A stretch of DNA of 57,582 nt from an uncultured Coriobacteriaceae bacterium (GTDB lineage Bacteria; Actinomycetota; Coriobacteriia; Coriobacteriales; Coriobacteriaceae), in contig CALUOB010000003.1 in NCBI GenBank assembly GCA_944322175.1, positions 1 to 57,582 of the forward strand. Reading direction: 5' to 3'. This document shows, piece by piece, positions 41,652 through 48,341 of the stretch (its first letter is position 1; each line of letters starts with the position of its first letter). The position numbers and the translations under genes were made by a program. The notes beneath the pieces are model-generated. The model had not been told where the DNA came from. It was given only the letters and a program-made list of their open reading frames with translations, and ran no database searches.

Positions 41652-41778
41652 AAAGATTGCGCAGCCAGGCGCCTTTGCCTGAAGATTACGCAACGAAACG
41701 GGTTACCGGGCCAAGTACGGCTCGATAACCCGTCTGCATGCGTAAGCTTGTGGCTTATGCGGGTAGCTGCGTAATCTT
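41652..41778. repeat. Intergenic AGATTACGCA repeat array, copy 2
   Basis: Two direct copies (AAAGATTGCGCAGC at 41652, AAGATTACGCA at 41682; cores 29 bp apart) and two inverted ones (TGCGTAAGCTT at 41739, TGCGTAATCTT at 41768; again 29 bp apart). Between them are hairpins CGGGTTA...TAACCCG and CAGGC...GCCTG. It lies between convergent genes (stops at 41602 and 41865), so an operator role is unlikely. Same family as 101-198. Confidence 0.75.
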
Positions 41779-41864
41779 TGCATCTCGGTGTGCGCCGCAG
41801 GGAGAAGAACAGCCTGCCCGCCGAAAGGGAACGGCCCGCGTGACGCAAGCGAGAAGAGCCGCCG

Positions 41865-45856: not shown

Positions 45857-46111
45857 AGGTCTCAAGCTCCCCTCTGTTGATCTTGAACCTGCTCCTTCAC
45901 GATGGCTTAATCATACGGGGGCGGTATCCGGCCAAAACATGGTACGCGTCACAGACCCCGCCGTCCGCCGCCTGCGAGATTCTGTGCTCGCGGAGCGGTT
46001 GGGCTGATCGTTTGCTTACTCCGGGAGCGGCCGCGCGCGGCGTACAATAGCGGGAGCGCGTGCCCGAGAAGGCGGCGTGCGGGCGGTTACAGGCAACAAG
46101 GAGAAGTGCGT

Positions 46112-47371
46112 ATGGCGGGCATTACCTATACCAAGCAAGAGCGCAACTGGGTCATGTACGACGTTGGCAACTCAGCGCTCGTGCTGTTCAACACCTCCGT
46201 CGTCCCCATTTACTTCGACGCCATCAACACGGCGGCCAACTCCGCCGAGCTCGTGACCGCATGGGCGAACGCCCAGACGGTGGCCTCGCTCGTGGTGGCG
46301 CTTCTCATGCCGATCTTGGGCTCGCTTGCCGACTTTGCCGGCAACAAGATCAAGTTCTTCCTCGGCTTCTTCCTCACGGGTTTGGTGCTGTGCTTTGCCC
46401 AGGCCATCCCCATGGGCGCCATGGCGTTTTTGGTGGTGTACGTGCTGTGCACCATCGGGCTCAACTCGTCCATGACGTTCTACGACGCCATGCTTCCCGA
46501 CGTCACCACCGACGATCGCATGGACACCGTGTCGTCTTCTGGCTACGCATGGGGCTACGTGGGCTCGTGCGTGCCGTTTATCGTCTGCATCGCGCTCATT
46601 CTGGGCGGACCGGCGGCTCTCGGGCTCGACATGCTGCTGTGCGTGCGCGTTTCGTTTGTCATTACGGGCCTGTGGTGGCTCGCCTTTACCCTGCCGCTCG
46701 TGCGCACGTACCGCCAGCGCTACGCCAAGAACCTCGCTCCCGGCGAGACCCTCGGCAGCGAGGTCGCAAAGACCCTGCGCGGTCTCGGCGGCACCATGCG
46801 CCGCATCGCCGCCAACAAGGTCATCCTCCTCTACATGATCGCCTTCTTCTTCTACATCGACGGCGTCCACACGGTCATCTCGATGGCCACCACCTACGGC
46901 ACCTCGCTCGGCATCGACTCCACCCAGCTCATCCTGGCGCTTCTCGTCACGCAGTTCGTTGCCTTCCCGTCGGCCATCGCCTACGGCCGGCTCGCCGGCA
47001 AGTACGGCACGCTGCGCATGATCATGATCGCCGTGGCCGCCTACGTTGCCATCGTGCTCTTTGCGGCGTTCTTCCTCAAAACCGCGGTCGAGTTCTGGAT
47101 CCTTGCCGTTGCCGTGGGCCTCTTCCAAGGCGGCATCCAGGCGCTCTCGCGCAGCTACTTTGGCAAGCTCATCCCCAAGGAGCGCGCCAACGAGTACTAC
47201 GGCTTCTTCGATATTTTCGGACGCTACGCCTCGGTTATGGGAACTCTGCTAGTATCTGTCGTGACGTCGCTGACAGGGAATCCTTCTTTAGGAGTGCTTT
47301 CCATCGGGATTCTCCTGGTTATAGGCCTCGTCCTGCTAGCAAAGCTCTCCGGCATGCGCAAGGATGCATAG
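46112..47371 (+). CDS. MFS transporter, UMF1/Atg22-like family
   Basis: 419 aa with about 12 TM segments. The start WVMYDVGNSALVLFNTSVVPIYF, the loop ADFAGNKIKFFLGF and SRSYFGKLIPKERANEYYGFFDIFGRYASVMG near the C-terminal half are typical of the UMF1 family. Substrate unknown. AAGGAG lies 8 nt before the ATG; TACAAT at 46043 may be the -10. Confidence 0.9.
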   Translation: MAGITYTKQERNWVMYDVGNSALVLFNTSVVPIYFDAINTAANSAELVTAWANAQTVASLVVALLMPILGSLADFAGNKIKFFLGFFLTGLVLCFAQAIPMGAMAFLVVYVLCTIGLNSSMTFYDAMLPDVTTDDRMDTVSSSGYAWGYVGSCVPFIVCIALILGGPAALGLDMLLCVRVSFVITGLWWLAFTLPLVRTYRQRYAKNLAPGETLGSEVAKTLRGLGGTMRRIAANKVILLYMIAFFFYIDGVHTVISMATTYGTSLGIDSTQLILALLVTQFVAFPSAIAYGRLAGKYGTLRMIMIAVAAYVAIVLFAAFFLKTAVEFWILAVAVGLFQGGIQALSRSYFGKLIPKERANEYYGFFDIFGRYASVMGTLLVSVVTSLTGNPSLGVLSIGILLVIGLVLLAKLSGMRKDA

Positions 47372-47395: not shown

Positions 47396-47500
47396 CTCCC
47401 GGGCCGTCGTTGCCTGCTCAAGCACATCCTGACTCACGACGGAGGCGCCACTGGCGCCTCCTGTTCGTGCGGAATCTCGCATTCAACGACGGCCCGGGAG
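47396..47500 (+). ncRNA. Structured element, module 1 (queT leader)
   Basis: Terminal stem of 17 perfect pairs (CTCCCGGGCCGTCGTTG at 47396-47412 with 47484-47500). Inside: a 28-nt segment ending TCACGAC, a 9-bp hairpin GGAGGCGCC-ACT-GGCGCCTCC (47441-47461), linker TGTTCG and the conserved TGCGGAATCT (47468-47477). Module 2 has the same parts in inverse orientation. It could act as RNA in the leader of queT or as the 3' end of the MFS transcript. Type is assigned by structure only. Confidence 0.55.
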
Positions 47501-47543
47501 ACCTGCGCAAGGTCGCTCTTCTCCTGTGGGGCTTGGGTGCAGA

Positions 47544-47654
47544 GGGGCGCGGGGGTGATCTCCGCGCGCAGATTCCGCATGAGCAGAAAGCGCCGTTTCC
47601 GGCGCTTTCGTCGCGAAGAGGACTGACCGAGCACGGGGATCACCCCCGCGCCCC
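47544..47654 (-). ncRNA. Structured element, module 2 (inverted relative to module 1)
   Basis: Read on the minus strand: a 17-bp stem GGGGCGCGGGGGTGATC (47654-47638) pairs perfectly with 47560-47544; then a 28-nt segment ending TCGCGAC, a 10-bp hairpin GAAAGCGCCG...CGGCGCTTTC (47609-47586), linker TGCTCA and TGCGGAATCT (47579-47570). Lengths 17, 28, 6 and 10 match module 1 while stems differ, which is covariation. On the plus strand it precedes queT by 82 bp. Confidence 0.55.
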
Positions 47655-47735
47655 CCGGTCATCCTCGGGGATCTTCCTCGCTCCGGAGCTTTTGCCAGCG
47701 GATCAAGCAAAGCTCTCGAAGGTGAGGAGAACATC

Positions 47736-48341
47736 GTGAAAGCACTGTCTCAGTCCAACTATATTGCCCGAACGGGCGTCATCGCCGCTGCGTACGCGGT
47801 CTGCACGCTCGCAACCATGCTATTCTTGGGAAACCTCGCGTGGGGTCCCGTGCAGTTCCGCGTGTCGGAGGCGCTGTGCGCGCTCGCGCTCTTCTCGCCG
47901 GCGGCGGTTCCGGGGCTCACACTCGGGTGCATCATCGCCAACGCGGCCAACATCGTGCTGTCGGGCACGGGCATGCTCGGCATGCTCGACGTCGTGTTCG
48001 GCTCGCTCGCCACGTTTGCCGGAGCGCTCTTCACCTGGAAGTTGCGCCGCCGTCCCGTGCTTGCGCTTCTCGGTCCCGTGCTTGCCAACGCGCTCATCGT
48101 GCCCGCGTACCTCCCGATCATGCTTTCGGGCATCGGGTTTTACACGATCCCGTTCACGTCGATTTCGCTCGACGGTTCGTGGCCTCTTATGTATCTGTTC
48201 GGACTCGTGACGACCGGCCTCGGCGAGGCGGTTATTATGTATGTGTTGGGGCTTCCGCTCTCGCGCTCCCTTGCCCAGACGCCCTTCTTTAACCGGGAGG
48301 TTGCCCAGGCAGGAGCGGGCGGCGAGAAGCACACGAGCTGA
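47736..48341 (+). CDS. queT: QueT-family transporter (predicted queuosine-precursor ECF substrate component)
   Basis: 201 aa with about 5-6 TM segments. GPVQFRVSEALCALALFSPAAVPGLTLGCIIANA and MLDVVFGSLATFAGAL, then NALIVPAYLPIM and GLGEAVIMYVLGLPL, are characteristic of QueT. It would import a queuosine precursor (preQ0/preQ1) with a shared ECF energizing module encoded elsewhere. GTG start with GAGGAG 6 nt upstream. A hairpin GAGCTTTTGC/GCAAAGCTC (47686-47715) lies just ahead of the Shine-Dalgarno and could control initiation. No preQ1-I or preQ1-II consensus was recognised in the leader. Confidence 0.9.
   Translation: MKALSQSNYIARTGVIAAAYAVCTLATMLFLGNLAWGPVQFRVSEALCALALFSPAAVPGLTLGCIIANAANIVLSGTGMLGMLDVVFGSLATFAGALFTWKLRRRPVLALLGPVLANALIVPAYLPIMLSGIGFYTIPFTSISLDGSWPLMYLFGLVTTGLGEAVIMYVLGLPLSRSLAQTPFFNREVAQAGAGGEKHTS

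Follow-up and report, generated by a model that had tools for sequence, protein, structure and literature searches.

Between the gene for an MFS/Atg22-like transporter (46106-47371, plus strand) and queT (47736-48341, plus strand; PF06177, E = 1e-36), a 57,582-nucleotide stretch of DNA from an uncultured Coriobacteriaceae bacterium (the window) carries two structured modules in inverse orientation, which raises the question of what these elements are and what keeps their arms complementary. Module 1 (47396-47500, plus strand) starts 24 nt past the stop codon of the transporter gene, in sense orientation. Its 17-bp outer stem (CTCCCGGGCCGTCGTTG / CAACGACGGCCCGGGAG, read directly from the sequence) is an inverted repeat of a locus-specific 5' arm (47396-47412) and a 3' arm (47484-47500), both on the plus strand, and encloses a tip (47415-47483, plus strand; TGCTCAAGCACATCCTGACTCACGAC - hairpin - TGTTCGTGCGGAATCTCGCATT) that is kept in dispersed copies. 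Inside the stem, a 28-nt segment ending in TCACGAC leads to a 9-bp hairpin with the loop ACT, followed by TGTTCG, TGCGGAATCT and the closing arm. Module 2 (47544-47654, minus strand), located about 80 nt upstream of queT and antisense to it, was identified by direct reading, its inverted repeat and folding. It also has a 17-bp outer stem read directly (GGGGCGCGGGGGTGATC / GATCACCCCCGCGCCCC; locus-specific 5' arm 47638-47654 and 3' arm 47544-47560, both on the minus strand), within which a 28-nt segment ending in TCGCGAC is followed by a 10-bp hairpin with the loop GAAA, TGCTCA and again TGCGGAATCT. Both modules are long hairpins in which a 17-bp outer stem leads through an asymmetric inner region to a terminal hairpin of 9-10 bp, and an independent repeat search recovers both inverted repeats. 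Folding energies are -66 kcal/mol for module 1 and -81.8 kcal/mol for module 2 (z = -8.8 and -8.9), with 0 out of 200 shuffles folding as well, and folding as DNA is also stable (z = -8.1). A covariance model of the family (see below) matches them with 110 bits and 103.8 bits (the latter over 47546-47652), respectively. The preliminary description of this locus had reported two inverted modules on one common plan that can pair with each other; direct reading and folds far better than those of shuffles bear out the former, and a possible cross-pairing over 42 nt (71%) the latter.

The same description had linked the modules to queT, as a possible riboswitch-like leader. This link is not supported. 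Modules are located upstream of queT in only two of 30 queT loci, those of the window genome and of G003 from the same genus, and the arms in G003 are entirely unlike those of the window genome. The other 28 queT loci searched have no modules before queT; one genome of the same genus with the same MFS-queT gene order (G001) has a short spacer there with neither module nor palindrome. Given this module-less relative and the rarity of modules before queT, the simplest reading is that the genus gained the pair at this site, rather than that the pair regulates queT. A queT or preQ1-related leader would account for the position of the modules in two genomes, but module 2 is antisense to queT, nearly all relatives lack modules before queT, modules elsewhere follow unrelated genes and no Rfam riboswitch matches. 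As the site is not conserved, this candidate was rejected, and we regard it as extremely improbable. Insertion into a pre-existing terminator hairpin was likewise rejected since the module-less queT site of the same genus has no palindrome, yet other sites in relatives do hold other palindromes. Directly upstream of queT (47680-47720), there is also an imperfect hairpin (GAGCTTTTGC / GCAAAGCTC), and several Collinsella have a similar one (CGGAGGGCTTTGCTG) before queT; this may be the real queT leader structure.

The modules belong to a widespread family. A BLAST search of the module region against its own genome returns about ten further places. A covariance model built from 11 copies, with a short calibration, finds 12 matches in the window genome and matches in 56 of the 61 Coriobacteriaceae genomes sampled, with one genome per species and copies related by descent. 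Up to 26 copies per genome are found in a quick search and about 32 in a deeper search. True members with the same tip are also present in other families of the order, and a few occur beyond the order. A pattern scan of named genomes yields chiefly Collinsella species and some chance matches in unrelated bacteria. Some assemblies break inside modules (the end of G000:C33 in the window genome, G068:C25, G081:C69 and contig ends in the pattern scan), so the copy numbers in draft genomes are lower bounds. The expectation of an unnamed structured family with strong covariation is thus confirmed by many further copies with compensatory changes, found by the kind of search of Coriobacteriia that had been proposed. 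No Rfam family, preQ1 riboswitches and all others included, matches the window above its gathering score, and 14 other module loci are without a match apart from one tRNA, in line with the earlier statement that no described family was known to have this plan. The one named candidate, Collinsella-1 (RF01700, PMC2864571), is a structured element named from the same bacterial group, but has a 196-position model and a different sequence and plan. In six genomes tested by name, it is absent from the window genome, G003, G060, G065 and G148. Its only matches, two in G144, form a convergent pair as modules do, but represent an element different from the modules.

Comparison of the copies reveals a division between a shared tip and site-specific arms. 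The conserved tip of about 55 nt consists of inner helices and a terminal hairpin, all of which covary. Its consensus reads TGCTC(A/G)G(A/G)CAGTCCTG, a 5-nt strand, GAC and the terminal hairpin, followed by T, a 5-nt strand and TGCGGAACT(C/G)C. The first inner helix occurs for instance as CAGTCC/GGAACTG, CAGCTTC/GAACTG or CAGTTT/AAACTG, and the second as CGCAA/TTGCG, TGCAA/TTGCA, GACAA/TTGTC, GGCAA/TTGCC, GACGC/GCGTC or GCCGC/GCGGC. The terminal hairpin exists in 41 distinct versions among 118 copies. Four-nucleotide terminal loops are all GNRA in module orientation, and U-G is frequent at the stem base. Around this tip, the outer stem varies in length from 17 to 53 bp with a sequence particular to each site. 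Whole units are 100-165 bp long. In G060, which has 26 copies, the tips are on average 84% identical (19 of 325 locus pairs are identical), whereas similarity over the outer 20 nt of the arms is 54% compared to 52% after shuffling, i.e., at chance level between loci.

The modules have a preferred position and orientation. A proportion of 62 out of 118 starts in sense orientation within 60 nt past a stop codon, 41 of them within 20 nt, while an antisense gene end within 60 nt on the other side is present in only 10 out of 118 (gene ends being predicted by a simple composition heuristic). About half of the modules are not beside a predicted stop codon in sense orientation, and few are located between divergent genes. 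This orientation bias supports either a function at the 3' end of the upstream transcript or a strong preference for inserting there. Intrinsic terminators between genes, ordinary or bidirectional, would fit the position right after stop codons and the depletion between divergent genes, and strict pairing on both strands would suit the bidirectional type. Nonetheless, the stem is not followed by a T tract: base composition gives no T enrichment beyond the first base past the right arm. A comparison by a U-tract terminator screen gives 8% versus 9% and does not discriminate. A conserved tip would moreover be superfluous for termination, making terminators an improbable explanation. Single modules are commoner than close pairs (<600 nt), of which 23 are found in eight genomes, all with a plus module followed by a minus module. 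In several pairs, convergent genes each have their own module. The genes at the queT locus are not convergent and yet the module pair is, so being paired may matter in itself; that this order is kept even with tandem genes is not explained by a simple 3'-end role. At one further locus (L243, G079:C13), the approximately 600 bp between paired modules resemble, by eye, a type II toxin-antitoxin pair.

Covariation is usually taken as proof of a selected RNA structure, and the preliminary description had read the preserved pairing with changed bases as strong evidence of selection for structure. The covariation itself is strong. Across 125 aligned matches, a few of which repeat a place already matched more strongly on the other strand, standard pairs make up 94.7% of the stem cells versus 59% in shuffled and 40-47% in slid controls, a level that is inflated as the alignment was fitted to the model, but with very large margins over the controls. 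The covariation score is 0.87 against 0.20, and the first 11 copies, aligned without a model, show the same covariation. It is no simple proof of selection on RNA, however, because the near absence of G-T pairs points to a cause or contribution at the DNA level. In the central hairpins of 118 copies, Watson-Crick pairs number 1058, next to a single G-T, two A-C and one other, while G-T accounts for 30 of the 354 pairs in tRNA genes from the same loci (8.5%; p = 9e-18 versus the central hairpins, for copies that are related and not independent). Similarly, the outermost 18 stem pairs include 34 G-T and 37 A-C out of about 1,620. A helix that is selected only as RNA would be expected to tolerate A-C less than G-U on its own strand. 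The equal rarity of G-T and A-C therefore fits pairing that is enforced at the DNA level or on both strands. As an indicator of the working strand, wobble asymmetry is ambiguous, as the conserved A-C positions point one way and a conserved U-G position points the other. A true RNA element (a 3'-UTR RNA or a small RNA), with arms shaped by compensatory mutation under RNA selection only, would agree with the sense-orientation bias, the GNRA loops and the covarying inner helices. Several percent of G-T would then be expected for a helix evolving via G-U intermediates, and whole arms would not be expected to turn over between conserved flanks as described below; we consider this explanation unlikely.

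Orthologous sites reveal how the arms change. At a first site, compared across 23 genomes that belong to one genus, the flanks hardly vary while at least four arm haplotypes occur, which are largely unrelated and each almost perfectly paired over 45-53 bp. One genome (G060) differs from its closest relatives by a single two-sided change in which G-C replaces A-T. A second site, with paired modules, has three arm haplotypes for module 1 and two for module 2, with shared flanks and outermost base pairs and further two-sided changes between close relatives. One genome has lost the hairpin there by deletion and retains half an arm; two further genomes show a deletion that fuses the paired modules. 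One-sided variants that break a pair are nearly all singletons, whereas two-sided variants are common, widespread and older, counts that are indicative only as clustering merged some haplotypes of different sites.

Template switching at quasi-palindromes would be expected to produce such an in-place turnover of arms. It has been described as making and keeping perfect hairpins (PMC8794818), the arms of inverted repeats are homogenised (PMC8604942) and quasipalindromes have been described in E. coli (PMC7202029). The modules share two-sided changes, perfect stems and multi-base jumps with such hairpins (PMC8794818, PMC8604942), which have been reported for RNA genes and inverted repeats generally and not for a dispersed bacterial repeat family. 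We thus tentatively favor, with a probability of roughly 40%, the explanation that the modules are REP-like gene-end hairpins in which a DNA-level process, probably template switching during replication, keeps the arms complementary. Replication would stall at the hairpin and switch template, by which one arm would be copied from the other, and the loss of broken copies may help to keep the arms complementary. The hairpin would act at the end of the upstream transcript by blocking 3' decay or read-through, or by docking a factor that recognizes the tip. Part of the evidence does not fit easily. Two-sided complementary changes without mismatched intermediates are observed, but selection against mismatches could also cause these. 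Template switching further predicts inversions of loop or spacer; none are found at orthologous sites, tips included, or among terminal loops, and the orientation bias is strong even though inversion is expected. The GNRA loops and the frequent U-G at the stem base, on the other hand, fit selection at the RNA level.

A related explanation, to which we give slightly less credence than to the RNA element, is a self-palindromising repeat, of which only the tip spreads, while the arms are built by fold-back copying of neighboring DNA and kept by arm-to-arm copying. A search for empty sites that may reveal the origin of the arms, at three sites, gave results that are suggestive at best. At the site of C72 in G002, which lies in a rearranged locus, there is a single occurrence of the right-arm end (CCTGTCGCC before CTCTTCGCG); this would fit fold-back copying, but may also be a deletion remnant.

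The manner of spread may also be that of a MITE-like non-autonomous mobile element without host function, with a tip recognized on the folded strand by a putative enzyme and the position behind stop codons reflecting an insertion preference. Identical tips at different loci within one genome, the gain at the queT locus, loss through hairpin deletion and convergent pairs reminiscent of REPINs speak for this possibility. Against it, no associated enzyme was found, no target-site duplication is visible by eye and copies do not carry their arms along. The Y1/RAYT family (PF01797) is absent from four module-bearing genomes (the window genome, G002, G065 and G023) and present in G072, which has no modules. 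Y1/RAYT transposases moreover adjoin different palindromes, and a RAYT/Y1 transposase was rejected as the mover on both grounds. A mobile element of this kind hence seems doubtful, if somewhat more plausible than a purely RNA-selected one. The favored gene-end hairpins do resemble REPs and REPINs (PMC3116915, PMC3733652), which are short extragenic palindromes that are dispersed behind genes and often form two units in inverse orientation, but the modules differ by a conserved tip on site-particular arms, a length of 100-165 bp and the lack of a RAYT link. The modules show the two inverted palindromic units of a REPIN; conservation of the palindrome sequence including the stem is not observed, with the outer arms at chance. 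We know of no locus-specific, self-matching arms in BOX and RUP repeats. These repeats of pneumococcus (PMC3049150) are similar to the modules as small intergenic dispersed repeats.

With hundreds of copies in dozens of species, the modules display a perfect, fast-changing complementarity almost without G-U intermediates, making the origin of two-sided changes directly testable and the family a good natural test of hairpin evolution. It also adds a class-wide, unannotated family of gene-end repeats in common human gut bacteria, whose palindromes may break assemblies.

Several module sites carry other long palindromes in relatives, some with tips of other families on unrelated arms. Conserved tips on locus-specific arms may therefore not be confined to the module family, and self-palindromising may also be a trait of several tip families of these bacteria that are unrelated to one another. 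For instance, L265 (978-1123) and L280 (130-256) share a further conserved tip (TTTCCGCAGGAC - hairpin - ACATGTCCGAGGAC) whose long arms are unrelated, and represent a second Collinsella family with module-like architecture. In L416 and L417 (G001 and G003; orthologous to G000:C72), the module is replaced by long palindromes whose tip, GA(T/G)TTCTGAGC ... GGCGAAAAGA ... TGA, is of a third kind. At a module-orthologous site in other species (L195, 2029-2140; L198; L199), different perfect palindromes with arms of 40-54 bp occur, some of which are REP-like (GGGGACAGGTCCC). Y1 transposase genes at L206, L211, L217, L220 and L223 have flanking palindromes whose motifs are of the GGGGACGT or the GGGACGGG type, and are likely true REP/RAYT systems in Coriobacteriaceae. 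Finally, the window itself comprises a separate palindromic repeat (102-201 and 41652-41779) with the boxes AAGATTACGCA / TGCGTAATCTT at a spacing of 29 nt, of which about 20 copies are present in the window genome.
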